A DNA stretch of 64,000 nt, taken from positions 24,131,584 through 24,195,583 of the forward strand of contig JAJEKV010000005.1 of the NCBI GenBank assembly GCA_021234155.1. The letters are read 5' to 3'. The notes beneath the pieces were generated by a model. The model was given only the letters and a program-made list of their open reading frames with translations, did not search any database and had not been told where the DNA came from. Below are positions 7,702-55,000 of the stretch, piece by piece (within the stretch, counting starts at the first letter, position 1; every line of letters begins with the position of its first letter). Made by a program: the position numbers and the translations under genes. The DNA comes from Isoetes taiwanensis. Taxonomy: Eukaryota > Streptophyta > Lycopodiopsida > Isoetales > Isoetaceae.

Positions 7702-9674
7702 AGGCTTTAAAGAGGTTGGCACCTCCAAAAACCCTCAAGCAGGTAAAAAGTTTCATGGGGATGACCAGCTTCTTGAGAATGTATGTCCCTCATTTTTCCC
7801 ACACTATGAGTCCAATTTCCAACCTCACAAAGGTTGGAAAATTTTCCAAGGGTGAAAGCAAACATATTCTGATAGATTGGAATGAGCAATGCCAAGATTC
7901 CTTCGACAAAATCATTGATGCCATCTGTAAATCTATCCTACTTAAACCTCCTGATCTAGGGAAACCTTTCAAGGCTTATATCAGTGTCACAAAAAGGGCA
8001 ATTGGTTTGGCACTGCTGCAAAAGGATCATGTGATTGCTTTTGCAAGCAAGATGTGGTCTGATACTGAATTGAGATATCCTAGGTTGGAGAAAAGTGCAG
8101 CAGCCTTGATGTTCTTGATAGAAAGACAAGGACACCTGTTTCAAAACAATCAGGTTCAAGTATTTATGAGACAAAATCCTTTCTCACTTCTTTTTGCAAA
8201 AAAGCAACCAAAGGCTAAATTATGCAGGTGGGCTTGTAAGGTCCAAGCTTATGATATTACTGTAAAGGTGGTTAAGCTAATTGAGAATCCCAGCTCCTAT
8301 CTTCCATATGTGTTATTTGAGCATGAAGATCAAGATGGTTTATGCAGTGATGATAATCTAACAAACTTGGTTTCTTTTGATGCAGAAAATACTGACTGGC
8401 AACTTGACATTAGAAATTATCTTGAGAGCAATGAGTTGCCCAAAAATTTGAGTAGCAGTCAAGAGAGAAGATTTAAAGACTAGTGCAAAAAGTTCAGGCT
8501 AATTGAGGGTGTTTTATGCAAAATTGACAAGGAGGGATCTTCTTTGAGATGTGTGGATGAGGAAGAGGCCAGGATGATAATTGAAGCATGTCATGAGGGA
8601 GTGTGTGGAGGACACTTTGCAGCAGACACAACTGCAAAAAAGATTCTGAGGTCAGGATATTTTTGGCCCACTCTTTTCAAAGATTGCTATGACACTATAA
8701 AATGCTGCCATAAATGTCAAATCTTTGGTAGAAAAACTCTGCAACCAGCTGCCCTTACTGCAATAACATCTCCTGGACCTTTCCAAATATGGGGGCTGGA
8801 TTTTATAGGCCCCATAGATCCACCTTCCTTAGCTCAACACCAGTTTATATTAGTGGCCACTGACTATTTTACCAAATGGGCAGAGGCAATTCCTTTGAGA
8901 GAAGCTAATGCTCAAGCCACTGCAAGATTCCTGCATGAGAACATTTGTGCCAGATTTGGCATTCCCTTTAAAATAATCTCTGACAGAGGCAGCCAGTTCA
9001 TCAACCATGCAATTCCACTTCTGCTAGCCACCCTAAAAGTCAAACACACCAAGAGTTCGTCCTATTACCCTCAAGGCAATGGCCAAGCAGAATCAACCAA
9101 AAAGACTCTCAAATCTATTCTCAAGAAGACCATCAATGTCTCAAAAAAAGATTGGCATTTGAAGCTCCATGATGCACTTTGGGCATACAGGACTACTATC
9201 AAAACAGCTACAAAACACACTCCTTTCAGTTTGGTGTATGGGATAGAATCAGTATTACCTATTGAGTTAGAACTTCCATCTCTCAGACTGGCTTATCAAA
9301 TTAATTTAGAAATGGATGAGGATCTAAAAGAAAGGTTTGTGAGATTGATGCAGCTTGAGGAGCATAGATATGAATCAGAAAATGCTGTCATGAGAAAAAA
9401 GGCTAAGGACATTGCAGCCTTTAAAGCAGCACACAAATTGCAAGGAGTTTTGAAAACAGGAGAGTTGGTGTTGAAGTGGAACAAGGCAAGGGAAGAAATA
9501 GCATCCAAATATGAGAATCTCTGGGAAGGACCATTTGAAGTGATTGGTACAGCTGACAGAGATTCATATTGGCTGAGAGATATTGTTGATGGCAGAGAAT
9601 TGATGAACCCTATCAACATTGTGCACCTGAAAAGGTATTGGCAACAGCATGTTGCCCTTGCTCTATTCAACTAA
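7702..9674 (+). pseudogene. Subfamily D (D1) pol 3' half: RT end, dead RNase H, integrase
   Basis: The frame opens in the RT thumb/connection (ALKRLAPPKTLKQVKSF) and continues through a gypsy RNase H that has lost its acids: YISVT where YTDAS is usual, and EKSAA where EKELLA is usual. A single in-frame stop at 8481-8483 (TAG where related copies have a Lys codon) breaks it. The integrase follows, with CHEGVCGGH, CHKC, the Asp in IWGLDFIGP, the Asp in ISDRGSQF and the Glu in QGNGQAESTKK. It ends at LKRYWQQHVALALFN, stop 9672-9674. Protein sequence differs clearly from the A copies, so this is another subfamily. The 5' half was lost to the A LTR at 7701. Confidence 0.85.
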
Positions 9675-13449: not shown

Positions 13450-15380
13450 TGTTGCCCTTGGGGCAACATACTAATTGTGGTCTATGCATTTAAACTAGAT
13501 CAATTTATCTTAAAAAACTAGGTCAAAGTTTGGAAGATTCTTGGTATTCAACATTGATGTGGAGGTTGAAAGATGTTCATTCTTCAGGACAACAAGTGCT
13601 CAAGGTTCAAATTCACATGAGGTACTTTATTTGAGGTCAAAATGCTTAGTCAAGAATATGCTCTAGAAGATTCTGGGTTATGAAGTTTGGAAGACATTTT
13701 TTTGAAGATTGGAAGTCAAAAGTTTGGAAGACCCCATGGTGCTTGATTTTATCCCTTAGCCATCCTCATCCCATTATTATTCATATTCTATTTCTATTCC
13801 TTGAGATTTTCTAGCCATTTTTCCCATACCCATACCCCCTTTTGTTTACCTTTGCATACCTTATTATGCTTTGCTCAATTTTCTCTTTCTCTACTACATC
13901 CACATTCCCCCATGAATTATCCTCCCCCATTGCCTCTATATCTTCTCACTTCTTATGCCATTTGTTTTTTCTTGCAAATTTCCCTAGCCAAAACCCTTTT
14001 GCAATTCTTTATCATGATGCCATGCCACTTGTATACCTTATGGAATATTCCTGATCATTATGCCCAAGAACTTGGTATATTCCCAAAAAAATTAGGGTTG
14101 CCATTGCTAAGATGATTCACCCCTTCAAATTTTTATGAGTGACTCTTTAAAACCTTAGCCTAGCTTTGCAAAAATGGAAGAATACAGCATATTCCAGGGA
14201 TATATGGGCGAAAATACGAAATTGTATCGCGCTATTTTCAGGAAAAATACTGCCAAGAACCCTAAAATTCTGCCTCCACCTCGAATCATGCCGGATTTGG
14301 ATCCAAACCCCTCGGAAATTACCTATTTTCACCTTCCCGCTCTTTATGAACCGAATAAACCCATCAATTAAGGCTAAGATCAAGCAAACATTTGAAAACT
14401 AAAATATATACTGGGGATTCGACAAAAGAATTTTCTTGAAGGCCCAGAAGCATACAAATCTTACTGTGATCATTGCTGAGCATGACTAGAATGATTTGAG
14501 AAGACTCTGAGTACTCCCCGATCAAGTCCCAACAGATTTGGTTGGAAATTACCTATTGAAATTATTTATTGACCTGAAGTTGATTTTGAAGTACTGAAGT
14601 ATTATTATCCAACATTTTTATGATTGATCTACCTCCACATCAATGAAATTTGGTACCTACTTGAAGAAATTATCTCTGTTATGATTTTTTACAATTTCTG
14701 TCTATTCAAAATTCTACAGAAAATTTCCTTGCACTTTTGATTGCTTTTGGCCCATTTGTCATCAACCCTTGAGACATCTGGAGCCCATATGTTTTGAAAA
14801 ATCCAAAAAATTCCACTCACAACTCGAGTTAGAAATTTTTGCATTCTGTTTTGACTGTTCTTGACTGTATTTTGCCAAATTCAGCCACAAAAAATGCTTT
14901 TGCCTATTCAAATGGAAATCTGATCACTTGCCTATATTCCTCATCATCATTACAGCATATTTGCTTTGGAAATTCTCAAAAATTCGTTTGGCATCTCCAA
15001 AATCCCAATCTCTGATCACTGTTTTTCAGATTTGACTGCTATTGACCAAATTTTGACTGCACTTTGAGCTCGAATAACTCACAAACTAAGTTTCTGACTT
15101 GGTCAGAGGCTTTACTATTGGTTACCTACAACTTTTTTGACCAAGTCTACAGTGATTGACCCAAAAAAGCGATCTGCATATCAACACCACAACTGTTTTG
15201 GCAAAGGTGTCAATTTCTGGAAATGGGAAAGGTATAAAACTTCAAATTTTTGAACTTGTCTTTGAAATTATCTTGCATAGATTGATCACCTTAAGTGATC
15301 TGGAGGTTCTAACCCCAATTTGAGTGAAAACTCAAGTTGGTTCCTTGTGGTTGACCTTTAAGCCAGGTTTAGGGTCAACA
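13450..15380 (+). repeat. F 5' LTR
   Basis: Runs from TGTTG to CAACA. The terminal hairpin is TGTTGCCC/GGGCAACA with loop TTG, whereas the 3' LTR has loop CCAAA. A likely TATA box (TATATA) is at 14405-14410. The U5 hairpin GATCACCTTAAGTGATC is at 15284-15300, followed at once by the primer-site copy TGGAGGTTCTA (15301-15311). Confidence 0.92.
14405..14410 (+). promoter_or_regulatory. Candidate TATA box in F 5' LTR
   Basis: TATATA in AAAATATATACTGGGG. A similar CTATATACAGGG motif sits at the same place in E (about 51063) and other A LTRs, roughly midway in the LTR. Transcription start was not determined. Confidence 0.35.
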
Positions 15381-15383
15381 TTT

Positions 15384-15402: not shown

Positions 15403-15422
15403 TCTACCTGGATTGAGAACTC

Positions 15423-18400
15423 ATGGCTCGAAAGCAGAAATTTCCAGCCGAGCAAGAACCAATATCAATGGAAGACCATGATACTTCAGAACCCTGCAGA
15501 GATAGATCTCTTCCCCCAAGTTTTTCAACTGGATTACTTCAAGGTTTACCTTACCAGCTTGAATTAAATGTGCCTACTCCATTGCCTACTTTTGATTCCA
15601 GTATGAGTGCTAATACTTTTCTAAGAATTTTTGAAGATTACTACAGGGATTATGGCTTCAAGAAAGGTTGCAAGTTCTCACAATTTGAAAAGTGTTTTAA
15701 AGAGGAGAGTGAAGCTGGTGCTTGGCTGACTTATGAAAAGCTTATGGGAACCATTTCTTGGGATGATCTTGTTACTAAGTTTTTAGACAGGTTTGGAAAG
15801 CTTGCTGCTCCTAAGGATCTTGTTAATGAATTGCAAAATTTCTCTATTTATGCAGGTGAAAGTGTTAGCCAGTATAAGGAAAGATTCAGCACCTTTATGA
15901 GTAGATGTCAGAAATGCCAAGTTACTGTCCCCACGCTTTTCTTGGTATCCTCTTTTATCAAAGGCCTATCTTCTAGACCAGAAATTCATAGAAAGCTTAT
16001 CAAGATACAAGCTGCTGAAGGTTTTGACTCCATCTACAAAGTTTTTGCCAAGACTACTGAATTAACCAAAATGCTCTCTATCCTACCAGAAAAACATCAT
16101 AGCTTTCAGCATGACCCCTTTTATCCTGATGCCATTGATGGCCCTTATGAACATCACCACTCTGTTCCTATCTATGCTGTGCATAAAAAAAAGAAAAAGA
16201 CCAAAGAGGAAGAGGCTGATTCTCAAATCTCAGAGGTTAAAGCTGACTTGACAAAGGTAATTGAGGCTTTAGCAGAGGTAACTAAGCAACTTGTGGAGCT
16301 CAAAGCAAGCAGAACAGGTAGAACTTATCCTGAGTGTATTCATTGTAATAGAACTTCACATCCAGCTGATATTTGTTATTGGCAAATATGTCCTAAATGT
16401 AAAAAGAAAGGTCACTTTGGAAGGGAATGTCCAGTCTGTGCTTTTTGCAAAGAAATTGGCCATACTGATCTTAGGTGTACTGTCAAAGAATATTTTGCCA
16501 AGCAGGAAAGAGAGAAGAAATCTGAGGCAACTCCTCATGTGAGATTTGTTGAACCTACTAGTTCTATAAGATTTGTGCAGGCTACAGAGATGCCTAAAAC
16601 TGAGGAAGTGATGGTGGTACAAACCAGAAGCATGGATGAGATCCATAGACCTGCTGAGCCTAATAGGTTTGCTCCAGAGCAATCCAGAAAGTCAACATTA
16701 CCATTACCTCCTGTTTCTCCTCAAGAAATAGCTCCACCTCCTCAACAAAAGTATGGTAAGAAAGATCAAGATCTGGATGAGTTGGATGTTCTACTAAAAA
16801 ATTCCAAAGTAAGTGTGGATTTATTTACCTTATTAAAAATTGCCCATGGTTATAGGAAAAAGTTATTACAACAAACTACTTTTAGTGAGGCAGTGGCTTG
16901 TGTAGGTGTTGCAAATGCTACTAATCTTATTTTAGCTCAAAATGAGGAAGACCCAGGTGCATTTATGTGTTCAGCTACCCTAGGAGGTTATTCTTTTTCC
17001 AATGTGTTGCTGGATGGAGGCTCACCTCTAAATATCATGCCTTATCATGTCATGAAAAAATGTGGGTTTGAGATAGATAAAAGGTCATCTGTTTTGTTAA
17101 AATCTTTTTCTAATGCTAAAATAGCACCAGTTGGAATTGTGACTAAAGTTCCTGTTAATACTGAAGGCATTGTTGTAGCTGCCAATTTTGTTGTTGTTGC
17201 CTTTGAAGATTTAGGAGAAGATGCAGATATATATGATCTCCTGCTAGGTAGAAGGTGGATGGCTACAGTTGATGCTAGACCAATCTGGTCTGAAGGGAGA
17301 TGCACCATTTCAAATGGCACTCAAGTAGCCACAATTTACAATCAGGATGGTTCTTATGGCTTCAGGGAAGAGGTACATTTTGTTAAAGAAATGCTTATAG
17401 AAGAGCCCCTAGGATCTTATAGTTTAGCAACCCCTAGCACAAAGGAAACAGATCTGATTCCTTTGATTAGAGAGTGTGCACTACCTTCTGAGAATGGGAA
17501 AAAAGGATGCTTGTGGTTTGATGGAGGGATTTCAAAAAAATTGAGTGTAGCTTCATCTGCAGCCATACTGAAGGATACCTCCAATAAACTTTTGGCTAAG
17601 GTAGGAAGGATTTTTCCCCAAATCACTTCTAATGTAGCAGAGTACAAAGCTTTGATTGCAGGCCTTCAAGAAGCCAAGGCTATGGATATTTCAGTCATAC
17701 ACATCTATGGAGATTCTCAGTTAGTGTGCAGACAGGTTAATGGTGAGTATCAGGCCAAGAATGCTGACAAGGAATCCTTGAGAAATCAGGTAATGGGAAT
17801 GCTTGCTTACTTTACTTCTTGGAAAATTACTCATATCCCAAGGGAACAGAATTGGGAAGCTGATGCTTTGTGCAGGGATACTTTAATGACTTATCTATCT
17901 GAGGGAGCTATCCCAGAAGAAGATCTTGATGAGGATGAGGCTAAGGAATTTTGTCCTATATTAGTTATAAATGCATCACAGGAAAAGGAAACCAATGAGG
18001 TTGTAATTAATAAAAATGGCCAGCAAAGAACTCTGTTTGTGGGAGATCTTTTTGACACACAAAACAAGGAAGAGATCAATAAATTCTTTGAAGAGAGAAG
18101 TGATGTGTTTGCCTGGGATTATTCTGAGCTTATTGGTATCAAAGAGGAGGTATGTCAATTTGAAATTAAAATTAAGGAAGGGTGTAAGCCTGTCTTCCAG
18201 AGGTTAAGAAGAATAAATGCTTCACTTTTAGATCTAATCAAAGATGAATTGCATAAGATGTTGGATGCAGGTGTCATTGTAGAAATCATTAACCCTGAAT
18301 GGGTATCCTGCATTGTTCTAGTGGAAAAAAAGAATGGAACTTTGAGAATTTGCATAGATTATCGAGATTTGAACAAAGCCACCATAAAAGATTGTTATCC

Positions 18401-20720
18401 TTTGCCCTTTTTGGAAAAAATTCTATATGCTGTTGCAGGGAAAGACATGTACTCATTTTTGGATGGTTTTTCAGGGTTCAACCAGATTAGCATCAAAGAG
18501 GAAGACCAGCCAAAGACTTCATTTATCACTCCCTGGGGTACCTATGCTATGAAAAGAATGCCATTTGGCCTAATGAATGCCCCAGCCACTTTCCAAAGAG
18601 CAATGGATGTCATTTTCAAAACCATGGCTGCTGAAGAATTTAGAGTGTATCTAGATGACCTTTGTTTGGGTTCTCATTCTAATAACCATGTGGAATTGCT
18701 TGCAAAAGTCTGCTCTTTATGCAGGATTTCAGGAGTCAATCTAGATCCAAAAAAATGCATCTTTTTTGCATCCAAAGGACAACTTTTGGGACATGAAGTA
18801 TCCAGCCAAGGTATTCAAGTTGCTCAAGATAAAATTGAAGCTCTCAAAAAATTAGTACCTCCCAAGAATTTGAAGCAGGTTAAGAGTTTTATTGGTATGA
18901 CAAGTTTCCTTAGGATGTATATTCCAAATTTTGCTCATATCTTAAGTCCTATCTCTAGGTTGACCAGGATAGGGAAGTTTTCTAAATCTGAAAGCAAGCA
19001 CATACCTATCACATGGACTCCAGAATGCCAAGAAGCTTTTGACTTTCTTATTTTATCCATATGTGAAGCTACCCTTTTAAAAAAACCAGATTTGAGCCTG
19101 CCATTTGAGGTTTATATCACTGTTACTAAAAAGGCTATAGGTTTAGCCATTTTGCAGGATAAGCACACCATAGTTTTTGCAAGCAAACAATGGTCTGCCC
19201 TTGAAGAAAGATACACCAGAATAGAAAAAAGTCTTCTTTGCTCTCATGTTCCTCATCAATAGGCAAGGGCACCTACTTCTGAAAAGCCAAGTTCAAGTTC
19301 ATATGAAGCAAAATCCAATGGGATTGCTATTTGGTAAAGCAACCAATAAACCAAAAATTCAGAGGTGGGCTTGTAAGTTGCAAAGTTATGATATCTCTGT
19401 AAAAGAGTTGCACTTGACACGAAATCCTAGCCTCTACTTGCCTTATATATTTTTTGATCATGAAGATGAATTGAATACTACTGATACCTCACTTGCAGTA
19501 GCACATCTAGAGGAAACTCAAGAAGATCAAGTCAAAGGAGGATGGCAGCAACCCATTAGAGATTTTTTACAACATGGGGTCATCTCCCCAAATCTCACTT
19601 CAAATCAAAGAAGAAGACTCAAGGACAAGTGCAGACAATTCAAGCTGATAGATAATGTTACGTGCAAAATTAATAGAGATGGGATTTTCTTTGAGATGTG
19701 TAAGTGAAGATGAATGCTTTTAATTGTTAGGGAGATGCATAAGGGTATTTGTGGGGGACATTTTTTTGGGGATACCTTTGCCAAAAAGATCCTTAGGTCT
19801 GGGTATTATTGGCCTACTATTTTTAAAGATTGCTATGAGATCATAAAGACTTGCCATAAGTGTCAGATTTTTAGCAAAAGGATTTTATTATCAGCTGCCC
19901 TGAATCCTATCATATCCCCAGGACCTTTTCAAATTTGGGGGTTAGATTATATTGGTCCTATTAATCCTTCTTCTGCATGTCAACATCAGCATATTATTGT
20001 GGCTACAGACTATTTTACTAAATGGGCAGAGGCCATACCATTGAGGCAAGCCAATGCCCTCACCACTGCAAGATTCTTACATGAATTTGTTTGCTCTAGA
20101 TTTGGTATTCCTTTCCAGATACATTCTGATAGAGGTACCCCCTTTGTTAATGAAGTCATTACTAATTTGTTGAGTATTTTGAAGGTCAAACATACCAAGA
20201 TATCAAAATAGTGGATGCACTTTGGGCTTATAGAGTCACTATCAAAACAGCCACAAATCATACACCTTTCAATTTGGTTTATGGCATAGAAGCAGTTCTA
20301 CCAGTAGAACTTGAGCTACCTTCCTTAAGATTAGCTCATAAATTGTGCTTACCTTTTGAACATGCCTTACAGGAGAGACTGGATGCCCTGTTACATTTGG
20401 ACGAGTACAGAATGGAAGGTGAGAACACAAACTTGCTGAAAAAGGCTAAAGATCTGGCTGCATTCAAGGCTGCTCACAAAATACAAGGCACTTTTAAAAA
20501 AGGAGAGCTTGTTCTCAAATGGAACAAGTCAAAGGAGGATTCAGCTGGCAAATTTGATAACATTTGGGAAGGACCCTTTGTAGTGCTGGATCCTGCAGGT
20601 ACAAATTCTTATTGGTTACAAGAAGTTGCTTCAGAGGTGCCACTGCCAAATCCTATCAACATCCTGCACCTGAAAAGGTATTGGGACCAGCATACTAGCT
20701 TGTCCCTCTTTTCACATTAA
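15423..20720 (+). pseudogene. F gag-pol: Gag, protease, archaeal-type RNase H, RT, dead RNase H, integrase
   Basis: The first frame (15423-19262, 1279 codons) starts at MARKQKF. Order by residue: Gag capsid region (~50-240), Lys/Glu-rich coiled coil (~255-300), three CCHC knuckles (~305-353), aspartic protease with LLDGGSPLN (~505-640), archaeal-type RNase H (~693-823) with D700, E740, D764 and D814, and RT with YLDD at 1076-1079. The gypsy RNase H that follows has no catalytic acids. Frame changes occur near 19250 and 19690. Integrase resumes at 19714 with its HHCC and two Asp motifs. A ~100-bp deletion near 20200 removes the segment with the catalytic Glu before the C-terminus (20211-20720). 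One Gag-Pol frame, not separate gag and pol, appears to be the ancestral state. Confidence 0.9.
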
Positions 20721-21574: not shown

Positions 21575-23507
21575 TGTTGCCCCCAAAGGGCAACATACTA
21601 ATTGTGGTCTATGCATTTAAACTAGGTCAATTTATCTTAAAAAACTAGGTCAAATTTTGGAAGATTCTTGGTATTCAACATTGATCTGGAGGTTGAAAGA
21701 TGTTCATTCTTCAGGACAACAAGTGCTCAAGGTTCAAATTTACATGAGGTATTTTATTTGAGGTCAAAATGCTTAGTCAAGAATATGCTCTAGAAGATTC
21801 TGGGTTATGAAGTTTGGAAGACATTTTTTTGAAGATTGGAAGTCAAAAGTTTGGAAGACCCCATGGTGCTTGATTTTATCCCTTAGCCATCCTCATCCCA
21901 TTATTATTCATATTCTATTTCTATTCCTTGAGATTTTCTAGCCATTTTTCCCATACCCATACCCCCTTTTGTTTACCTTTGCATACCTTATTATGCTTTG
22001 CTCAATTTTCTCTTTCTCTACTACCTCCACATTCCCCCATGAATTATCCTCCCCCATTGCCTCTATATCTTCTCACTTCTTATGCCATTTGTTTTTTCTT
22101 GCAAATTTCCCTAGCCAAAACCCTTTTGCAATTCTTTATCATGATGCCATGCCACTTGTATACCTTATGGAATATTCCTGATCATTATGCCCAAGAACTT
22201 GGTATATTCCCAAAAAAATTAGGGTTGCCATTGCTAAGATGATTCACCCCTTCAAATTTTTATGAGTGACTCTTTAAAACCTTAGCCTAGCTTTGCAAAA
22301 ATGGAAGAATACAGCATATTCCAGGGATATACGGGCAAAAATACGAAATTGTATCGCGCTATTTTCAGGAAAAATACTGCCAAGAACCCTAAAATTCTGC
22401 CTCCACCTCGAATCATGCCGGATTTGGATCCAAACCCCTCGGAACTTACCTATTTTCACCTTCCCGCTCTTTATGAACCGAATAAACCCATCAATTAAGG
22501 CTAAGATCAAGCAAACATTTGAAAACTAAAATATATACAGGGGATTTGACAAAAGAATTTTCTTGAAGGCCCAGAAGCGTACAAATCTTACTGTGATCAT
22601 TGCTGAGCATGACTAGAATGATTTGAGAAGACTCTGAGTACTCCCCGATCAAGTCCCAAGAGATTTGGTTGGAAATTACCTATTGAAATTATTTATTGAC
22701 CTGAAGTTGATTTTGAAGTATTGAAGTATTATTATCCAACATTTTTATGATTGATCTACCTCCACATCAATGAAATTTGATACCTACTTGAAGAAATTAT
22801 CTCTGTTATGGTTTTTTACAATTTCTGTCTATTCAAAATTCTACAGAAAATTTCCTTGCACTTTTGATTGCTTTTGGCCCATTTGCCATCAACCCTTGAG
22901 ACATCTGGAGCCCATATGTTTTGAAAAATCCAAAAAATTCCACTCACAACTCGAGTTAGAAATTTTTGCATTCTGTTTTGACTGTTCTTGACTGTATTTT
23001 GCCAAATTCAGCCACAAAAAATGCTTTTGCCTATTCAAATGGAAATCTGATCACTTGCCTATATTCCTCATCATCATTACAGCATATTTGCTTTGGAAAT
23101 TCTCAAAAATTCGTTTGGCATCTCCAAAATCCCAATCTCTGATCACTGTTTTTCAGATTTGACTGCTATTGACCAAATTTTGACTGCACTTTGAGCTCGA
23201 ATAACTCATAAACGAAGTTTCTGACTTGGTCAGAGGCTTTACTATTGGTTACCTACAACTTTTTTGACCAAGTCTACAGTGATTGACCCAAAAAATCGAT
23301 CTGCATATCAACACCACAACTGTTTTGGCAAAGGTGTCAATTTTTGGAAATGGGAAAGGTATAAAACTTCAAATTTTTGAACTTGTCTTTGAAATTATCT
23401 TGCATAGATTGATCACCTTAAGTGATCTGGAGGTTCTAACCCCAATTTGAGTGAAAACTCAAGTTGGTTCCTTGTGGTTGACCTTTAAGCCAGGTTTAGG
23501 GTCAACA
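21575..23507 (+). repeat. F 3' LTR
   Basis: TGTTG to CAACA, same layout as the 5' LTR, with the U5 primer-site copy at 23428-23438. It is followed by the CACAC duplication and the second half of LTR K. Confidence 0.92.
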
Positions 23508-27438: not shown

Positions 27439-30400
27439 CTATTCAAACAAACTCATACAAATATGTTGTTGCCAATACCTTTTCAGATGTAATATGTTTA
27501 TAGGGTTCATGAGCTGCTGACCTGTTGTGATATCTTCTAGGAAGTAAGAATTTGTACCTGCTTGTCCACAGATTTTGTATGGCCCTTCCCATAAGCAGTC
27601 AAATTTACCTGCTGTGTTTTCCCTTGCCTTGTCCCACTTGAGGACTAGCTCTCCCTCTTTGAAACTTCCTTGCAATTTGTGAATGGCCTTGAATGCTGCT
27701 GCATCCTTTGCTTTCTTAAGCAAGATGGCATTCTTTGCTTCAAACCTCTCTTCTTCTAGATGGAGCAACCTATCAAACCTTTCTCTGTATGCTTCCTCCA
27801 TCTGCATTTGAATCTTTAGAGCTAACCTTAATGAGGGCAACTCCAATTCCACTGGAACAACAGCCTCAACACCATAGACAAGAGCAAAAGGTGTATGATT
27901 AGTTGCACTTTTAATTGTAGTTCTATACGCCCAAAGTGCATCATGTAATTTAAGGTGCCAATCTTTTTTATACACCTCTATTGTTTTATTGAGAATAGCT
28001 TTTAGTACCTTGTTGGTGGATTCAGCCTGGCCATTGCCTTGAGGGTAGTATGCTGAGCTTTTCACATGCTTTACCTTCAAGGTCTTTAGCAGGTTGCTGA
28101 TTACATCATTCATGAACTGAGTGCCTCTGTCAGAAACTATTTTCAGAGGAATGCCAAACCTAGTGCATATGTTTTCATGAAGGAACCTAGCAGTTGTCAG
28201 AGCATTTGCTTGTCTCAATGGGACAGCCTCTGCCCACTTGGTGAAGAAATCTGTTGCCACTAGTATGTATTCATGCTGAGAGGGAGAATTTGGATTTATA
28301 GGTCCTATGAAGTCTAGTCCCCAAGTCTGGAATGGACCTGGAGACGTGATGCTAGTCAAAGCAGCAGGCTGAAGAATTCTTTTTCCATGTATCTGGCATT
28401 TATGGCATCTCCCGATGGTCTCATAACAATCTTTGAACAAGCTAGGCCAATAATATCCAGACCTGAGTATTTTCTTTGCAGTTGTGTCAGCTGCATAGTG
28501 GCCTCCACAAATTCCTTCATGACAAGCCTCCAGTATCAACTCAGCTTCTGTCCTGTCAACACACCTCAGAAAGACACCATATTGATCAATCTTACATAAT
28601 ACCTCTCCAATCATCCTGTATGTTTTTGCTTTTTCTTTGAATCTCCTCAGCTGGCTGCTTGTAAAGTTTTCTGGCACCTCCTCATGCTTGAGAAACTTGA
28701 TGATTTCATCCTGCCAATCTTCTTGCATCTTGCTAGACAGCACAAGGTTAGTAGCAATCTCACACACTTCATCAGTGCTTAAACCATTAAAATCTTCAAA
28801 CTCAAACACCTTATTGGTCAAATAATCACTGGGACTTTTAATTGTTTTGACAGTCCTAACATTTAAATTGTAATCCTGTATCTTGCAAGCCCATCTACAT
28901 AATTTAGCCTTACTTTGAGTTTTCTGGAACAGCATGGGAATTGGATTTTGATGCATCATTACTTTTACCTCATTGTGCTGAACTATATGACCTAGCCTTT
29001 GTAGGAAAAACATTATTCCAGCTGCACTTTTTTCCATTATGGGGTATCTGTTCTCAGCATCAGACCAAATTTTGCTGGCAAAAGATATTATCCCATGCTT
29101 CTGCATGAGTGCTATGCCTACAGCTTTGCTAGTGACACTGATATATGCCTGGAATGGTTGAGCAAGGTCTGGTGGTTTCAGAATCTCTGATTGGCATATG
29201 GAAGTTATCAACAGATCAAATGCAGCTTGACATTCGTCTGTCCATTCTATTGCAATAAATTTGCTCTCATTCTTATTATACTTGCCAACACGTGTCAGAG
29301 CTGCCAAAGGACTTATGATGTGTGAAAAGTTAGGCACATACATTCTAAAAAAACTTGTCAAGCCCATGAAACTCTTCACCTGTTTTAAGGTTTTAGGTGG
29401 AGCTAATTTCTTCAAGGCTTCCATTTTTCCTTCAGACACTTTAATTCCCTGAGTAGATACCTCATGACCTAGCAGTTCACCTTTAGAACAGAAAAATACA
29501 CACTTCTTTGGATTCAAACACACTCCACCCCTCCTGCACAATTCCATTGTCATTGTCAGCAATTCCATATGTTTAGTTAGAGAAGATCCTAGGCACAAAT
29601 CATCCAAGAAAACTCTAAAATTTGACATTGGCATGCTTTGAAATATTTTATCCATTGCTCTTTGAAAGGTAGCAGATGCATTCATCAAGCCAAAAGGCAT
29701 TTTCATCATGGCAAAAGTACCCCAAGGGGTTATGAAAGAGGTCTTAGCTTGATCTGCCTCTTTTATCTTGATTTGATTGAAATCTGAAAATCCATCTAAA
29801 AAAGAATATATTTCCTTGCCTGCAGTTGCATGTAATACTTCTTCTAGAAATGGTAATGGATAACAATCTTTAATAGTGGCTTTGTTTAGATCCCTGTAAT
29901 CTATGCAAATCCTAATGCTCTTATTTTTCTTTTCTACTGGAACAATGCAAGACAGCCAGTCAGGATTTGTTATCTCTTTAATGACCTCAGCTTCTTTCAT
30001 CTTCAATAATTCTTCTCTAATCAGGGTAAGCAGTGATGCATTTATTCTTCTGAGTTTTTGCATTATAGGTTTAGCATCTTCTTTTATCTTTATTTCAAAT
30101 TCACAGATGTCAGTCCTCACTCCCACTAATTCTGTATAATCCCAGGCAAACACATCTTTCCAACTCTCAAAAAAAATTTTTAAGGAGGCCTCATCTTTGC
30201 TATCAAAAAGATCCCCAAGGAAAAGTGTTCTTACCTGTCCATTTTTGTTGATAGTTAACTCTTTTACCTCTTTCTCTTGCTGTGCATCTATCACCAGAAT
30301 AGGATATAGTTGTGTTGCATCTTCCTTGTTCAATTCATCTTCATTTATAGCTCCCTCAGCCAAATAGTCAAGGAGCACGGTTCTGCAAAGTGCATCTGCC

Positions 30401-31211
30401 TCACAATTCTCCTCCCTAGGTATATGTTTGATCTCCCAAGCCTTGAACTTGCTTAGCAATTGCAATGCCCTTTCTTTGAGTTCTGACATGTCTTGGTTTT
30501 TGGTCTGATATTCTCCAGTTACCTGTCTGCATATCAGTTGAGAGTCACCAAAGATAGATATATTAGTCAAACCTAAAGCCAAAGACTCTTCTAAGCCAGC
30601 TATAAGTGCCTTATATTCAGCCATATTTGAAGTGATTCCTTCATGTACTCTACCAACTTTGGATAAGAGTTTATTGGCAGAATTTCTGATTACAGCTGCA
30701 GAAGACGCTATATTCAATTTGATTGAAATTCCACCATCAAACCACAACACACCTTTATTGAGTTTTGCTTCCATGCCAAGGTCACCTAAACAGGTAGGTA
30801 TGATTTCTATTGGTTTGCATACAGAGACAGGCATTTTTAACACACCTGGCTCATCTTCAATCAACATGTCTTGTTCTATAAAGTTGTACAGATTAGCATC
30901 ACCTGTTTTGTTGTATAGAATTACAGTTCTTGCTCCATTTGAAATAGTGCACTGCCCTTTGGACCAGACAGGTCTAGCATCTACAGTGGACAACCATCTC
31001 CTTCCCAACAACAAATCATATATGTCAGTCACATCACAATTATCTTCAAAAGCCACAACTATGAAACTTGCCTCAACAATTATACCTTCAATTTCTATTG
31101 GCACCTTTGTCACTAGTCCTATAGGTTTTATTTTAGCATTGGAGAATGACCTCAATATGACAGGTGATGGTTGAGTGACAGCAAGACCACATTTCTTCAT
31201 TACATGCTGAG
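27439..31211 (-). CDS. B pol: partial protease, archaeal-type RNase H, RT, dead RNase H, integrase (uninterrupted)
   Basis: A single frame of about 1257 codons. The open frame runs on to 31257, but its first ~16 codons come from the antisense of the C LTR and are not B. Counted from that start: protease C-terminal half (~18-110), archaeal-type RNase H with D174, E214, D238 and D288, RT with FLDD at 550-553, a gypsy RNase H without acids (~700-820), then integrase with H913/H920 and C951/C954 and catalytic D982, D1043 and E1079. The last two are separated by 35 residues, the classic D35E spacing. There is no chromodomain. No stop or frameshift was seen, so B was probably mobile recently, but its start and the protease active site are gone. 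Polyprotein processing by the element protease is expected from the family. Confidence 0.9.
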
Positions 31212-33195: not shown

Positions 33196-33215
33196 CTTCC
33201 TGGATCTCAGAACTC

Positions 33216-36200
33216 ATGGCTCCAAAGCAAAAATTTCCAGCAGAAGCAGAACCATTGGAAGATGTTGATGTATCAGATCATTGCAGAGAAAGGCCATTGC
33301 CTCCAAGTTTCTCCACTAGCTTACTCCAGAACATGCCATATCAGTTTGAGTTGAATGTCCCTGTTCCTTTGCCTACCTTTGATTCCAGCATGAGTGCTAA
33401 CCATTTTTTGAGAATATTTGAAGACTATTACAGGGATTATGGTTTCAAGAAAGGGTGCAAGCTTTCAGAATTTGAAAAATGTTTCAAAGATGAGAGTGAA
33501 GCTGGTGCTTGGTTAACTTATGAGAAGTTAATGGGTACTACCTCATGGGATGAACTCGTTAAGAAATTTCTGGACAGGTTTGGTAAGTTAGCTGCTCCCA
33601 AAGATTTGGTTAATGAATTGCAAAGCTTTTCTATACATGCAGGGGAGAGTGTGAATCAGTACAAAGAAAGATTCAACACATTCATGAGCAGGTGTCAAAG
33701 AGCACAGGTCACGATTCCCACACTTTTTTTAGTAATTGCTTTCATCAATGGTCTGGAAAGAAGACCAGATATCCAAAGAAAATTGCTTAAGATCCAAGCT
33801 GCTGAAGGATTTGATTTCATATACAAAGTCTTTGCCAAAACTACTGATCTGACTCAAATGCTCTCTACTTTGCCTGATAAGCACCATATCTCCCACCATG
33901 GCCATGATCCTTTTTACCCTGATGTTACTGATGCACATTATGACCATCACCCTTCCATTCCAGTGTATGCAATACAGAAAGAAAAGAAGAAATCTAAGGA
34001 GGAGGAAGCTAGTTCTCAAGTTGCAGAGGTTAAATTAGACCTATCTAAGGTTACTGAGGCTTTAGCAGAGTTAACCAAACAACTAGTTGAGCTCAAAACT
34101 GCAAGAACAGGTAAAACTTACCCTGAATGTGTCCATTGTAATAGGAATACTCATCCATCAGAAATTTGCTATTGGCAAGTGTGTCCTAAATGCAATAGGA
34201 AAGGCCACTTTGGGAAAGAATGTCCTATTTGTTCTTTCTGCAAAGAAGTTGGTCATACTGATGTTAAATGTGCTGTTAAAGAATACTTTGCCAAGTAGGA
34301 ACAAGAAAAAAGGTCAGAACCTAAACCTTCAGTGAGGTTTACTGAACCAAGCACTTCAATAAGGTTTATTCAAACTCTGAGGCGGCTCCCAAGACTGAAG
34401 AAGTTATGATAGTGCAAACCGGAGAAGAATGAATGAAGTCAATACACATCTTTGAATCGGTAGGCATCCCACAACTAGATCTCCCTCACCTACAATGGAA
34501 GTACCTGCTCAAGTGATAGCTCCACCCCTCAAAAAAAGTTTGGTAAGAAAGACCAAGACCTTGATGAAGTGGATATCTTGCTCAAAAACTCTAAGGTAAG
34601 TGTGGATCTTTTCACATTGTTAAAGATTGCACCCAACTCTGAGGAAGAGAGTGCTTCAAACAAACTAGTGGTGAACAATTAAATGCTTGTATAAACTTTA
34701 TCGATGCCATCGATCTTGTTCTAGCACGAGAATAAAAAAGACCCCGGAGCATTTACATGTTCAAATTTTGCTTTAGGAGGTTTTACTTTTCCAATGTATT
34801 ACTTGATGGGGATCTCCCTAAACATCATGCCATATCACATTATGAAGAAGTGTGGTTTCGAGGTGGACAAGAGAGCTTCTATATTACTAAGATCTTTTTA
34901 TAATGCTAAAATCTCTCCTATTGGTGTGGTGACTAAAGTGCCTGTTACTACAGAAGGCATAACTGTAGCTGCTAACTTTATTGTGGTGGCTTTTGAAGAT
35001 ATAGGAGATGAATCTGATATCTATGACCTACTTTTAGGGAGAAGATGGCTAGCTACTGTGGATGCTAGGCCAGTCTGGTCTCAAGGGAGATGTACCATCT
35101 CCAATGGCTCCCAAACTGCTACTATTTACAACCAAGAAGGCTCCTATGACTCCAAAGAAGAGGTAAACTTTATTAAAGAAATGCTAATTGAGGAGCCTTT
35201 GGGATCTTACAGGTTAAAAACCACCAAACCAAGGAAATATGAAATGGTTCCCCTTATTATGGAGTGTGCACTTCCCAGCAAACAAGGACCAACAGGTTTT
35301 CTATGGTTTGATGGAGGTATCTCTAAAAAACTAAATGTTGCATCATCTGCTGCTATTTTGAAAGATTCTTCTCATAAACTCTTAGCTAAGGTAGGGAGAA
35401 TTTTTCCTCAAGTCACTTCTAATGTGGCAGAATACAAAGCTTTGATTGCAGGTCTTCAAGAAGCCAAAGCTATGGATATTGCCAATATCCATATTTATGG
35501 TGACTCACAATTAATTTGCAGACAAGTTTCAGGAGATTATCAAACAAAGAATGCAGATATGGAGCTTTTGAAGAATCAGGCAATGGGAGTGCTCTCAAGT
35601 TTTGCTTCATGGAGGATTACTCATATTCCAAGAGAAAAGAATTTTGAGGCTGATGCCCTGTGTAGGGAAACTCTCATGTCACATTTGGTGAGGGGGCTAT
35701 TCCTGAAGATGACCTTGATGACAATGAAGTAAAAGCACTTTGTCCTATTTTGACCATTGATGCATCGAAAAAAGAAGGAGATCAAGAGATTGTGATCACA
35801 AAAATGGTACGCCTAGAACTCTGTTTTGTTGGAGATTTGATTGAATATCAAAAGCAGGGAGAGCATACAAATGTTTTTGAAGAAAGAAAAGATGTATTTG
35901 CACGGGACTATTCAGAATTATCGGGTATCAAACCGAGGTATGCCAATTTGAAATTAAAATCAAGGAAGGTTGTAAACCTGTTTTCAAAAATTAAGGAGGA
36001 TTAATGCTTCACTTATGGGGCTAATCAAGGATGAATTAAATAAGATGTTAGATGCAGGTGTGATTATTGAAATTATTAATCCTGAATGGGTATCTTGCAT
36101 TGTTCCTGTAGAGAAGAAAAGTGGTGCTTTAAGAATTTGCATTGATTATCGAGATCTCAACAAAGCTACCATCAAGGATTGTTACCCCTTGCCTTTTCTA

Positions 36201-38398
36201 GAAGAGATCCTATATGTCAGCAGGTAAGGAAGTGTATTCATTTTGGATGGATTCTCCGGGGGTTCAACGGATCAGCATCAAAGAAGAAGACCAGCCAAAG
36301 ACTTCCTTTATCACTCCCTGGGGTACATATGCTATGAAAAGAATGCCTTTTGGTTTGATGAATGCTCCAGCCACCTTCCAAAGGGCAATGGATGTTATTT
36401 TCAAATCAATGTCTGCTGAAGAGTTTAGGGTGTACTTAGATGACCTTTGCTTGGGCTCTAATCCATCTAATCATGTGGAGCTACTTGCAAGAATTTGTTC
36501 TTTATGCAAGAGCTCGGGAGTCAATCTAAATCCAAAGAAATGCATCTTTTTTGCATCAAAAGGACAACTCTTAGGGCATGAAGTATCCAGCCAAGGCATT
36601 CAGGTTGCTCAAGACAAGATTGAAGCCCTCAAAAAATTAGCACCTCCCAAGAATCTAAAACAGGTCAAAAGTTTTGTTGGTATGACAAGTTTTCTCAGAA
36701 TGTATATTCCTAATTTTGCTCATATTTTGAGCCCTATTTCTAGATTGACAAGGGTAGGCAAGTTCTCCAAGTCTGAGAGTAAGCACATACCCATCACATG
36801 GACTTCAGAATGCCAAGAAGCTTTTGACTTTCTCATTCAATCCATATGTGAAGCCACACTTTTGAGGAAACCAGATTTGAATATACCATTTGAAGTTTAT
36901 ATTACTGTTACTAAAAAAGCTATAGGGTTAGCCATTTTGCAGGAAAAGCACACCATAGTGTTTGCAAGTAAACAATGGTCTGCTCTAGAGGAGAGATACA
37001 CTAGAATAGAAAAAAGTGCTGCTGCCCTCATGTTTCTTATCAATAGGCAGGGACACTTGCTCCTGAAAAGTCAAGTTCAAGTCTACATGAAGCAAAACCC
37101 AATGGGTCTACTATTTGGTAAGGCAACCAATAAGCCAAAAATCCAAAGGTGGGCTTGTAAGTTGCAAAGTTATGATATTTCTGTAAAAGAATTACATTTG
37201 GTACGAAGTCCTAGCCTTTATTTGCCTTATATATTTTTTGACCATGAGGATGAGTTGGATACTGCTGATACTTCACTTGTAGTAGCTCGTGTAGAGTTAA
37301 TTCCAGAAGATCAAGCTGATGGTGGGTGGCAACAACCTATCAGAGACTTCTTACAACATGGAGTTATCTCTCCAAATCTCACCTCAAACCAGAAAAGGAG
37401 ACTCAAGGATAAATGCAGACAATTCAAGATGATAGACAATGTTTTGTGCAAAGTCAACCGAGATGGAGTCTTGTTGAGATGTGTGAGTGAAAGTGAGTCT
37501 GCCCTAATCATCAGGGAAATGCACAAAGGTATTTGTGGAGGGCATTTTGCTGGTGATACTACAGCAAAAAAGATTCTCAGGTCTGGATATTATTGGCCTG
37601 CTGTTTTTAAAGATTGTTATGATATTATCAAGACTTGCCATCAATGCCAAATCTTTAGCAAAAGAATTTTACTTCCAGCTGCCCTCAATCCCATCATATC
37701 TCCAGGGCCCTTTCAAATTTGGGGATTAGATTATATTGGCCCTATTAATCCTTCTTACGCAGGTCAACATCAAAGATATCATTGTGGCCACATATTATTT
37801 TACTAAATGGGCGAAGCTATACCCTTGAGACAAAGCTAATCTTTTGCCACAACCGCAAGATTTTTACATGAGTATGTTTGTTCCAGGTTTGGTATTCCTT
37901 TTTGATTTGCATTCGATAGGGGCACGCCTTTTGTTAATGAAGTTATTACTAACCTGATGGACATCTTGAGGGTCAAGCATACCAAGAGCTCCTCATACTA
38001 TCCCCAAGGTAATGGACAAGTGAAGCCACTAACAAAGTGTTGAAAAATATCTTGCGTAAGCGGTTGAGATCAACAAGAGAGATTGGCATGTCAAAATAGT
38101 GGATGCACTTTGGGCTTATAGAGTCACTATCAAGACAGCTACAAATCATACACCCTTCAACCTGGTTTATGGCATAGAGGCAGTCTTACCAGTGGAACTT
38201 GAGTTGTCCTCCCTGAGGTTAGCTTATAAATTATGTTTACCTTTTGAACAGGCCTTGCAAGAGAGATTGGATGCTTTGCTGCACCTAGATGAGTATAGGA
38301 TGGAGGCTGAGAATACCAATTTGCTGAAAAAAGCCAAGGATCTGGTTGCATTCAAGGCTGCACACAAAATACAAGGCACTTTTAAGCAAGGAGAGCTT
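33216..38398 (+). pseudogene. C gag-pol, many frame breaks
   Basis: Starts at MAPKQKF. Gag is open to a stop at 34296-34298 (TAG where E has CAG), after the three CCHC knuckles. The stretch 34299-34793 before the protease is shifted several times. Then protease and archaeal-type RNase H are open (34794-35732; first acid at 35310-35312, and all four acids kept). RT lies in 36015-37000 with one break near 36215 and an intact YLDDL. The dead RNase H and integrase start continue to 37806. The core is shifted and loses an Ala/Glu region near 38020. The C-terminus is open from 38099 and stops at the junction. Most breaks are one- or two-base changes relative to E, consistent either with decay or with local sequence error. 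Confidence 0.85.
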
Positions 38399-42930: not shown

Positions 42931-44631
42931 CTACTTGACCATTCCCCGAGGATAATATGAAGAACTCTTAGTATGCTTGACTTTAAGAATGACCAACAAG
43001 TTAGAAATAACTTCAATTACAAAAGGTATGCCCCTATCAGAATGTAGCTTGAAAGGAATACCAAATCTAGCACAAATATGTTCATGTAAAAACTTTGCAG
43101 TGGTAGTAGCATTGGCCTGCCTCAAAGGTATAGCCTCTGCCCATTTGGTGAAGTAATCTGTGGCCACAATGATGTGTTGATGTTGACCTGCAGAAGGAGG
43201 GTTAATGGGACCAATATAATCCAATCCCCACATTTGAAAAGGTCCTGGAGAAACAATAGGATTCAATGCAGCTGGAAGGAGAATCGTTTTGCCAAATATT
43301 TGGCACTTATGACGGGTCTTTATAGCATCATAACAATCTCTAAAGACTGTAGGCCAATAGTATCCTGACCTGAGGATCTTCTTAGCTGTAGTGTCTCCAG
43401 CAAAATGACCTCCACATATTCCCTCATGCATTTCCTTAATGATCATGGCAGATTCCTCCTCATCAACACATCTCAGCAGCACTCTATCCCTGTTGACTTT
43501 ACACAAAACTTCATTAATCATTTTGAATTGTCTACACTTTTCCTTAAACCTTCTTTGTTGGCTCGAGGTCAAGCCTGATGGCATCTCTTGATACTGTAAA
43601 AAGTTCTTGATAGGTTGCTGCCACCCTTCTGAAACTTGATCCTCATCTGTTGACTGCAAGTAGGCTATGGCATCTATAAAGTCAACAGCTTCTAAGGTAT
43701 CCTCTTGATCAAAGAAAATATAAGGCAAATAAAGGCTAGGATTCTTAACCTGATGTAGCTCCTTGACAGAAATATCAAATGTCTGCAACTTACAAGCCCA
43801 CCTTTGAATTTTGGGTTTGCTAGTTGCCTTACCAAACAGTAATCCCATTGGATTTGTTTCATGAAGACTTGCACTTGGCTTTTGAGCAGCAAATGTCCTT
43901 GTCTATTAATGAGAAACATCAAGGCTGCAGCACTTTTCTCCATTCGAGTATATCTTTCTTCAGTTGAAGACCATTGTTTGTTTGCAAAGACTATGGTATG
44001 TTTCTCCTGCAAAATACCCAATCCTATAGCTTTTTTAGTAATTGTGATGTATACTTCAAATGGCCTCTCCAGATTTGGTGTTTTGAGCAAGGTGGCTTCA
44101 CATATGGAAGCAATCAGCAAGCCAAAAGCTTCTTGGCACTCTGAGGTCCATGAAACAGTGCTCTCAGCCTTGGAAAATTTGCCTATTCTAGTTAGTTTAG
44201 AAATAGGACTAATGATATGAGCAAAATTGGGGACATACATCCTAAGAAAACTAGTCATTCCCATGAAACTTTTGACCTGTTTAAGAGTTTTGGGTGGTGT
44301 CAACCTTTTGAGTGCCTCAACTTTGTCTTGAGCTACCTGAATTCTTTGAGTAGAAACTTCATGCCCCAACAGCTGTCCTTTGGAGGCAAAGAAAATACAC
44401 TTCTTGGGATTTAAGTTGACTCTAGATGCCCTTCACAAGGAGCATATCTTTTCTAGCAAACTCAAGTGGTTAGTACAATAGGAACCTAAACATAAATCAT
44501 CCAAGAACACTCTGAACTCTTTAGTTGGCATGGGACTGAAGATAATATCCATAGCTCTTTGAAAAGTGGCTGGTGCATTCATCAGGCCAAAAGGCATTCT
44601 CTTCATAGCATAAGTACCCCAAGGGGTGATG
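42931..44631 (-). pseudogene. G pol fragment: mid-RT, dead RNase H, integrase without C-terminus
   Basis: On the minus strand it starts in RT at ITPWGTYAMKRMPFGL and passes YLDD-type coding near 44490, with a break near 44400. It continues through the acid-free RNase H, with another frame change near 43860, into the integrase zinc region and core. It ends a few codons after the catalytic Glu region, where the frame reads into the 3' untranslated region, so the integrase C-terminus is deleted. Confidence 0.8.
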
Positions 44632-52070: not shown

Positions 52071-52090
52071 TTTCCTGGATCTCAGAACTC

Positions 52091-55000
52091 ATGGCTCCAA
52101 AGCAAAAATTTCCAGCAGAATCAGAACCATTGGAAGATGTTGATGTATCAAATCATTGCAGAGAGAGGCCATTGCCTTCTAGTTTCTCAGCCAGCTTACT
52201 TCAAAACATGCCATACCAGTTTGAGTTGAATGTCCCTGTTCCTTTGCCTACCTTTGATTCCAGCATGAGTGCTAACAGCTTTTTGAGAATATTTGAAGAC
52301 TATTACAGGGATTATGGTTTCAAGAAAGGATGCAAGCTTTCAGAATTTGAAAAATGTTTCAAAGATGAGAGTGAAGCTGGTGCTTGGTTAACTTATGAGA
52401 AGTTAATGGGTACCACCTCATGGGATGAACTCGTCAAGAAATTCCTGGATAGGTTTGGTAAGTTAGCTGCTCCCAACGATTTGGTTAATGAATTGCAAAG
52501 TTTTTCTATACATGCAGGAGAGAGTGTGAATCAGTACAAAGAAAGATTTAGCACATTTATGAGCAGGTGTCAAAGAGCACAAGTTACAATCCCCACTCTT
52601 TTCCTAGTTACTGCTTTCATCAATGGCTTGGAAAGAAGACCAGATATCCAAGGGAAATTGCTTAAGATCCAAGCTGCTGAAGGATTTGACTCTATATACA
52701 AAGTTTTTGCCAAGACCACTGACCTAACTCAGATGCTCTCTACTTTGCCTGACAAGCATCATGTTCCTCACCATAGCCATGATCCTTTCTACCCTGAAGC
52801 TTCTGATATCCATTATGATCATCACCCTTCTATTCCAGTTTATGCCATACAAAAAGAGAAAAAGAAATCTAAAGAGGAGGAAGCCAATTCTCAAGTTGCA
52901 GAGGTCAAGTCAGACCTATCCAAAGTTACTGAAGCCTTGGCAGAAATAACCAAACAGTTGGTTGAACTCAAGGCTGCAAGAACAGGTAAAACTTACCCTG
53001 AATGTGTTTATTGTAATAGGAATTCCCATCCATCAGAAATTTGCTATTGGCGGGTGTGTCCCAAGTGCAATAAAAAAGGTCATTTTGGAAAGGAATGCCC
53101 TGTTTGTTCTTTTTGTAAAGAAGTTGGCCATACTGATGCTAGGTGTGCTCTTAAAGAATATTTTGCTAAACAGGAAAAGGAAAAGAAGCCAGAGCCAAAA
53201 CCTCCAGTCAGATTTGCTGAACCAAGCACCTCTATAAGATTTATTCAAGCTACTGAAGTTCCTAAGTCAGAAGAAGTTATGGTGGTGCAAACCAGAAGTA
53301 TGAATGAAACTCACGTGCATGCTGAACCAAGTAGGCATTCTATTGCCAGGTCTTCTCCTCCTATGGTGGAAGCACCTGCTCAAATCATAGCCCCACCCCC
53401 TCAACAAAAATATGGTAAGAAGGATCAAGACTTTGATGAGGTTGATGTTCTGCTTAAAAATTCCAAAGTAAGTGTGGACCTTTTCACATTGCTAAAAATT
53501 GCACCTAGCTATAGAAAAAGAGTACTGCAACAAACTGGTAGTGAGGCATTGAATGCTTGTGTGAATTTTACTGATGCTACTGACCTTATTCTAGCACAGA
53601 ATGAAGAAGACCCTGGAGCATTCACATGTTCAGCTGCTTTAGGAGGGTATACCTTTTCAAATGTGTTACTTGATGGGGGTTCCCCTCTAAATATCATGCC
53701 ATATCATATTATGAAGAAATGTGGTTTCGAGGTGGATAAGAAAGCTTCTATGTTATTAAAATCTTTTTATAATGCCAAGATTTCTCCTATTGGTGTGGTG
53801 ACTAAGGTGCCTGTTAATACAGAGGGCATAACTGTAGCTGCTAACTTTATTGTGGTGGCTTTTGAAGATATAGGAGATGAATCTGATATCTATGACTTAC
53901 TTTTAGGGAGGAGATGGTTAGCCACTGTGGATGCCAGGCCAGTCTGGTCTCAAGGGAGATGTACCATCTCCAATGGCTCTCAAACTGCTACAATTTATAA
54001 CCAAGAGGGCTCTTATGACTCCAAAGAAGAGGTAAACTTTATTAAAGAAATGCTAATTGAAGAACCTTTGGGATCTTACAGGGTAAAAAATATAAAACCA
54101 AGAAAATATGAAATGGTTCCTCTTATTATGGAAAGTGCACCTCCCAGCATACAAGGACCAACATGGTACTTATGGTTTGATGGAGGTAATTCTAAAAAAC
54201 TAAATGTTGCATCATCTGCTGCCATTTTGAAAGACTCTTCTCACAAACTCTTAGCTAAAGTAGGAAGGATCTTTCCTCAAGTCACCTCTAATGTGGCATA
54301 ATATAAGGCTTTGATTGCAGGTCTCCAGGAAGCTAAATCTATGGATATTGCCAATATTCACATTTATGGTGATTCACAATTAATATGCAGACAAGTTTCA
54401 GGGGAGTATCAAACAAAAAATGCAGATATGGAGCTCTTGAAGAATCAAGCAATGGGAGTACTCTCGAGTTTTGCTTCATGGAAAATCACTCATATCCCCA
54501 GGGAACAGAATTTTGAAGCTGATGCTTTGTGTAGGGAGACTCTCATGTCACATTTAACTGAGGGAGCCATTCCTGAAGATGATCTTGATGACAATGAAGT
54601 AAAAGCACTCTGTCCTATTTTGACCATTGATGCATCAGAAAAGAAGGATATTGAGGAGATTGGGTACACCTAGAACTCTGTTTGTTGGAGATCTGATTGA
54701 ATATCAAAACAGGGAGAGTATACAAATGTTTTTTGAAGAAAGAAAGGATGTATTTGCCTCGGACTATTCAGAACTATCAGGTATCAAAACTGAGGTATGC
54801 CAATTTGAAATTAAAATCAAGGAAGGTTGTAAACCTGTTTTTCAAAAATTAAGGAGGATTAATGCTTCACTTATGGGGCTAATCAAGGATGAATTGAATA
54901 AGATGTTAGATGCAGGTGTGATTATTGAAATCATTATTCCTGAATGGGTATCTTGCATTGTTCCTGTAGAGAAGAAAAGTGGTGCTTTAAGAATTTGCAT

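Follow-up and report, generated by a model that had tools for sequence, protein, structure and literature searches.

Tat-type Ty3/gypsy retrotransposons with a predicted archaeal-type RNase H between protease and reverse transcriptase and a native RNase H lacking its catalytic acids

Tat elements are plant retrotransposons that, in the manner of retroviruses, acquired an additional RNase H and whose original one lost its catalytic activity. In the available part of the text of Neumann et al. (2019, PMC6317226), an archaeal-type RNase H (aRH) between protease (PROT) and reverse transcriptase (RT) is characteristic of TatI from clubmosses and TatII from gymnosperms. Biryukov and Ustyantsev (2023, PMC10508981) described an aRH upstream of RT as structure #2, which comprises the clusters Tat E, F, G and J and was found in three clubmoss species (Tat F and G) and in all studied gymnosperms (Tat E and J). 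In ferns, structure #1 alone was detected, and three fern species were without any aRH-bearing element; structures #3 and #4 have their aRH in a separate ORF. In every aRH-bearing Tat structure the native RNase H (RH) is degraded, regardless of the position of the aRH (PMC10508981). TatII from Picea is included in a 2022 review, as far as its accessible text goes (PMC9033089), and the accessible portions of the Cryptomeria (PMC11539532) and Taxus (PMC8367818) genome papers contain nothing on aRH order.

The stretch of DNA analysed here, 64,000 nucleotides in full and hereafter the window, consists largely of nested Ty3/gypsy LTR retrotransposons that belong to one broad group and lie on both strands. 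Copies are designated by letters, and the native gypsy RNase H is abbreviated gRH, as distinct from the archaeal-type aRH. The features used throughout are as follows.

13450..15380, plus strand: 5' LTR of F, TGTTGCC...GTCAACA, with a CACAC 5-bp duplication at 13445-13449 (self-blastn; ends and duplication read from the sequence)
15417..19262, plus strand: gag-pol open frame of F, covering gag, protease region, aRH, RT and the start of gRH, and stopping at a frame break within gRH (ORF list, Pfam, tblastn)
16917..17336, plus strand: presumed protease region of F, DGGSPLNIMP (identified by motif and position; tblastn query)
17493..17885, plus strand: aRH of F, predicted RNase HI domain of archaeal type, D10, E50, D74, R117 and D124 present (Pfam, NCBIfam, PDB)
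17886..18296, plus strand: spacer and N-terminal RT part of F, from aRH to RT core (tblastn)
18297..18821, plus strand: reverse transcriptase core of F (Pfam, tblastn)
19014..19404, plus strand: gRH of F, acids lost, in two pieces with a frame break near 19232-19240 (Pfam, tblastn)
19720..20306, plus strand: integrase of F, frames fragmented (tblastn)
21575..23507, plus strand: 3' LTR of F, with the CACAC duplication at 23508-23512 (self-blastn, sequence ends)
30370..30765, minus strand: aRH of B, D-E-D-R-D present (tblastn, NCBIfam, Pfam)
29440..29961, minus strand: reverse transcriptase core of B (Pfam, tblastn)
28855..29244, minus strand: gRH of B, acids replaced by Ser, Ser, Asn (alignment, Pfam)
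27850..28569, minus strand: integrase of B (Pfam, tblastn)
35286..35675, plus strand: aRH of C, D-E-D-R-D present (tblastn, NCBIfam, Pfam)
36799..37188, plus strand: gRH of C, acids replaced by Thr, Ser, Asn (tblastn, alignment, Pfam)
54155..54544, plus strand: aRH of E, broken by a stop at the catalytic Glu codon (sequence)
54942..55466, plus strand: reverse transcriptase core of E (Pfam, tblastn)
55659..56048, plus strand: gRH of E, acids replaced by Thr, Ser, Asn (Ty3 alignment, Pfam)
43854..44150, minus strand: gRH of D1, partial, first two acids replaced, RT truncated upstream (tblastn, alignment, Pfam)
7878..8267, plus strand: gRH of A, acids replaced by Ser, Ser, Asn, element truncated downstream of the RT core (tblastn, alignment, Pfam)

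All four window copies that extend beyond RT on its 5' side (F, B, C and E) have the order protease, aRH, RT, gRH, integrase by Pfam and tblastn, which is the PROT - aRH - RT - RH - INT order of Tat structure #2 (TatI/TatII). Within the F open frame, Pfam placed RVT_3 (the aRH) at residues 701-820 (E = 4e-21), RVT_1 at 969-1128 and RT_RNaseH_2 at 1200-1275. The B frame (27439-31269, minus strand) matched RVT_3 at 177-296, RVT_1 at 445-604, RT_RNaseH_2 at 676-770 and RT_RNaseH at 701-800, followed by Integrase_H2C2 at 904-962 and then rve at 978-1076. Each of the four aRH domains placed by tblastn, at the coordinates listed, sits between the protease region and RT, and in F and B it shares one open frame with both; the first-pass annotation had put the F domain at 17500-17890, which is right to within a few bases. 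The region that we take to be protease was named by its DGGSPLNIMP motif and its place; the scanned long frames gave no Pfam protease match, and the F region was used as the tblastn query that located the protease region in C and E.

The order of structure #1, with an aRH between native RH and INT, was not encountered: the single RVT_3 match of B is upstream of RT, and Pfam found no second RVT_3 between gRH and integrase in the B frame or in the E pol frame, where the gap between tblastn matches is 95 codons. A chromodomain C-terminal to integrase, the mark of chromoviruses, had no Pfam match in the B frame, which extends beyond integrase, nor in the E pol frame, which is perhaps cut short. 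The copies A, D1 and one on the minus strand at 2863-3921 are truncated inside RT or downstream of it and do not bear on the position of the aRH. Lone integrase and gag pieces are also present in the window (tblastn). Judged by order, domain types and the published descriptions, the copies are very probably Ty3/gypsy LTR retrotransposons of the Tat lineage with structure #2.

Profile scans of the aRH were made on the open copies F, B and C, E being left out because of its stop codon. RVT_3 matched the three domains with E-values of 7e-23 (F) to 1e-24, and RNase_H with 1e-5 to 7e-5 (Pfam). The NCBIfam halobacterial and Thermoproteota RNase HI models matched at 1e-22 to 5e-25 (3e-23 and 6e-23 for F), with all scores well short of the curated cut-offs (F scored 82.6 bits where 300 is required and 81.4 where 140 is), as expected of a distant relative; for C, the best-scoring NCBIfam model was that of a bifunctional RNase H/acid phosphatase from bacteria (3e-24). 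Six PDB RNase HI sequences were matched by the F domain, namely 4e19 (the best, 9e-16), which we take to be archaeal in origin, 3hst (Rv2228c), 3u3g, 3aly, 2ehg and 4h8k. The aligned catalytic set in F consists of Asp10, Glu50, Asp74, Arg117 and Asp124 of 17493-17885, and D-E-D-R-D is intact in F, B and C. In E the codon of the catalytic Glu is a stop, and thus its aRH is not a complete RNase H. A complete D-E-D-D RNase H had been claimed for all four copies on first pass; the position between protease and RT held in all four and the acids in F, B and C. For B, the acids had been numbered 174/214/238/288, with the correct spacing but four lower than 178/218/242/292. With the aRH alignment as query, three loci in bacterial MAGs were retrieved at 31-33% identity, and a scan of viral contigs by two to six short peptide patterns found no relative of the B aRH. 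The Arg is a mark of archaeal-type RNH, as opposed to His in the fungal/metazoan type, according to the available text of PMC5348765. Typed by profile scores and by the published tree as described in PMC10508981, the upstream domain is predicted to be of archaeal type, with a full catalytic set in F, B and C.

The downstream domain matched the gypsy RNase H models. Four whole gRH copies (B, E, C and A) and the partial one of D1 all matched RT_RNaseH_2 and RT_RNaseH and not RVT_3 in Pfam (5/5), with E-values of 4e-19 to 5e-17 for the four full copies; given these values and those of RVT_3 for the aRH, chance is excluded for both domain identities. None of the four gRH copies was given an RNase H model by NCBIfam, which returned one weak unrelated match only. 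The RT-gRH of E aligned to the Ty3 RT-RNase H chains 4ol8 (3e-49) and 7q5b (1e-47), and at the three alignable positions that we take to be catalytic acids of Ty3 (the Asp of TTDAS, the Glu of GELELL and the Asp of RTDH) the downstream domain has no acid. The first Asp is replaced in six of six copies, by Thr (YITVT) in E, C, F and D1 and by Ser in B and A. The catalytic Glu, the second of the GELELL stretch, is replaced by the Ser of EKSAA in all six, a match which for E rests on the 7q5b alignment, the 4ol8 alignment being gapped at that spot. The next Asp is Asn (KQNP) in the five readable copies (E, C, B, A and F), and in D1 a frame break falls right at this position; the deposited 4ol8 chain itself has Asn there, and 7q5b has Asp. 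The fourth gypsy acid presumably lies within the ADALSR motif, and no such motif was seen in the gRH tails of E, B, A and F. A seventh copy, at 2863-3921 on the minus strand, retains the gRH end only.

The earlier claim that the gypsy RNase H after RT had lost its acids, and that this loss was common to the copies, is thus borne out (Thr/Ser and Ser in 6/6 at the first two Ty3-aligned positions, Asn in 5/5 at the third); its extension to D1 holds for the first two. From the alignment, the native downstream RNase H is predicted to be catalytically dead. An AlphaFold model of the E gRH, from six window sequences, has an RNase H-like helix, three strands and helix, at a mean pLDDT of 43, a confidence that carries no weight; the B aRH-RT-gRH model, likewise from six window sequences, had a mean pLDDT of 37. 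Scans by two to six short peptide patterns each found no relatives of the E RT-gRH or of the RT-gRH alignment in viral contigs, and none of the B RT-gRH in prokaryote genomes.

Selection on the domains was estimated as dN/dS by the Nei-Gojobori method, with bootstrap limits from 200 rounds. For F against C and E, dN/dS was 0.05-0.06 in RT, 0.06 in the first piece of gRH, 0.01-0.02 in its second piece and 0.06 in aRH, where dS was about 2.0, near saturation, and 149-154 of the 200 bootstrap rounds were usable. The highest upper limits in these pairs were 0.12 for aRH, 0.11 for RT, and 0.15 and 0.05 for the first and second pieces of gRH. The gRH of F is 90-98% identical to those of C and E at synonymous distances of 0.6-1.2. 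In the C-E pair, dN/dS was 0.04 for aRH, 0.21 for RT with wide limits (0.03-0.95) and 0.10 for gRH (0.02-0.40); the other estimable gRH values were 0.07 (C-D1 and E-D1), 0.13 (F-A), 0.15 (F-D1) and 0.24 (F-B). For many pairs with B or A, the value was left out as not estimable, dS being saturated. Between F, C and E, which are close to one another, purifying selection on the dead gRH is strong and as tight as that on the neighbouring domains. Over longer times the gRH drifted faster and, of the pol domains under comparison, it is conserved least: identity to the distant copy B is 44-58% for gRH, 60-64% for aRH, 67-74% for RT and 64-78% for integrase. A domain well below neutrality and yet drifting faster in the long term argues for a retained non-catalytic role under looser constraint.

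How the two domains came to be as they are can be read in several ways. The two share the RNase H fold, and related elements seem to exchange sequence (C and E, below), which would suit an upstream domain that arose from the gypsy RNase H by displacement or duplication and is not of archaeal type. That identity was refuted by the profile scores and has practically no probability left: three of three aRH domains matched RVT_3 and the archaeal RNase HI models and not RT_RNaseH, five of five gRH domains did the reverse, and BLASTP of the B aRH against the gRH of the same element gave nothing meaningful (E = 6.7). The archaeal typing of the F domain proposed on first pass agrees with this outcome. 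The dead gRH, in turn, might be decaying junk rather than a working part, as the loss of its alignable catalytic residues, the frame breaks within it in F and D1 and its low identity to B would suggest. The F pairs with C and E disfavour this: the constraint at the distances given above is no weaker in gRH than in aRH or RT, and we regard junk as very improbable. A retained role is what we prefer. Here, the aRH would perform the RNA cleavage of reverse transcription, and the gRH acids would have been lost because another active RNase H rendered them dispensable. The dead gRH may then persist in the role of the retroviral tether, keeping hold of the RNA:DNA hybrid and of the RT fold, a mechanism which we hold to be somewhat more probable than not. 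Located N-terminal to RT beyond a spacer, the aRH probably reaches the hybrid by one of two routes: it may form the N-terminal part of a product that comprises aRH and RT, or it may be supplied by the partner subunit in an RT dimer. It might instead be released by the protease and act as a free RNase H outside the RT complex; the spacer in the window copies and the separate-ORF aRH of structures #3 and #4 (PMC10508981), by which a one-chain link to RT is not always kept, are in line with release, and against it stands the open frame shared with the protease region and RT in F and B, which has no bearing on later cleavage. Release strikes us as rather unlikely, if well within reach.

The tether reading itself comes from the retroviral and Ty3 literature cited by PMC10508981 and by PMC5348765 in its available text. 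For this reading, an upstream aRH is a useful test of whether the active domain must adjoin the tether in the chain, a question already framed in PMC10508981. A wider proposal, made on first pass, was that the copies form a clade of their own, so far undescribed, whose RNase H function passed to a relocated archaeal domain. The arrangement itself was confirmed, as was the absence of the acids from the native domain where the copies could be read; however, the order and the loss are already published for TatI/TatII (PMC6317226, as far as its available text goes) and for structure #2 (PMC10508981). The premise that the added domain of known Tat elements follows the gypsy RNase H fails on the same record, and, with the order known at the level of Tat structure #2, we see hardly any room for a new clade. 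The finding is a rediscovery, since both the order and the loss of the native RH were in print. What is new here are further copies, a selection estimate for the dead gRH and one apparently mosaic pair.

This pair consists of C and E. Over 5014 aligned sites between C 33207-38380 and E 52082-57110, divergence is 12.8% before the best break and 4.3% after it, and the break statistic was reached by none of 1000 block permutations. The best break, at C 35787 / E 54657, falls within the aRH-RT spacer, as template switching between related elements would lead one to expect, and agrees with a published view in which recombination between elements gave rise to the Tat structures. On the 5' side, the two gag blocks give C-E synonymous distances of 0.32 and 0.85 and aRH one of 0.61, and the synonymous fraction in and after the protease region is 0.23-0.26. 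On the 3' side, RT (104 codons), connection, gRH and the interval before integrase lie at distances of 0.08-0.11, and integrase at 0.18-0.24. C and E are apparently mosaic elements; they are one pair, the 5' side is uneven, and differences in rate along the element may be part of the cause. It is improbable that the host belongs to a plant group from which structure #2 is unreported, such as ferns, and that the 5' half, which carries the aRH, is swapped as one module relative to the 3' half with RT, the junctions falling in the spacer that separates the two domains. If true, module exchange would be a direct route for reshuffling aRH positions in Tat.

The copies differ in integrity. F (13450-23507) looks like a recent insertion, given its CACAC duplication and LTRs that are 98.9% identical over 1920 nt (13461-15380 against 21588-23507, self-blastn); it is nested in the LTR of a related family in opposite orientation, with the empty site seen against 40990-41060. 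Its 5' LTR is followed by TTTTGGAGGTTCTACCGGGATC, which we take to resemble the complement of the 3' end of tRNA-Gln. The gRH of F is interrupted near 19232-19240, C has frame breaks between aRH and RT, and B is truncated at its 5' end, we infer where the C LTR starts at 31212. Between the F integrase and 3' LTR lies a 213-codon open frame with no Pfam match (20861-21502), a possible extra ORF of F. Elsewhere in the window, two LTR-like stretches at 40422-42384 and 57772-59742 are 97% identical and in reverse orientation relative to F; they are possibly the two ends of one large element enclosing E and D1. Outside the pol-bearing elements as assigned, a 2.5 kb stretch occurs twice at 80% identity (10390-12857 and 61408-63881). 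At 60408 there is TGGTATCAGAGC, presumably a tRNA-Met-type primer binding site motif and perhaps of another element type, and 45389-46141 is a 250-codon open frame with no Pfam match. Of the 40 window frames of at least 110 codons, ten outside the main pol frames were scanned and none scored above a curated Pfam cut-off; the window gave no tRNA, no Rfam family and no gene recognisable as one of the host.

Compared with known systems, the window copies share their arrangement with TatI/TatII, which, in the available text of PMC6317226, likewise have Ty3/gypsy domains with an aRH between protease and RT and, behind RT, a degenerate native RH. Features in common with the structure #2 of PMC10508981 (clusters Tat E, F, G and J) are an aRH upstream of RT within pol and a degraded native RH. 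Tat structure #1 (Ogre/Retand of angiosperms, and hornwort, fern and other elements) also has an archaeal-type aRH and a dead native RH, but its aRH lies between native RH and integrase, where B has no RNase H domain. The oomycete elements Archon and Chronos, as described in the available text of PMC5348765, share an archaeal-type RNH and a native RNH without acids; in contrast to the window copies, their added domain adjoins the native one in a 'dual' RNH, and they are distant relatives on the RT phylogeny. Retroviral RT shares a native RNase H turned non-catalytic tether beside a second RNase H, whereas its added domain is of the Fungi/Metazoa type and lies downstream of the tether (PMC10508981).
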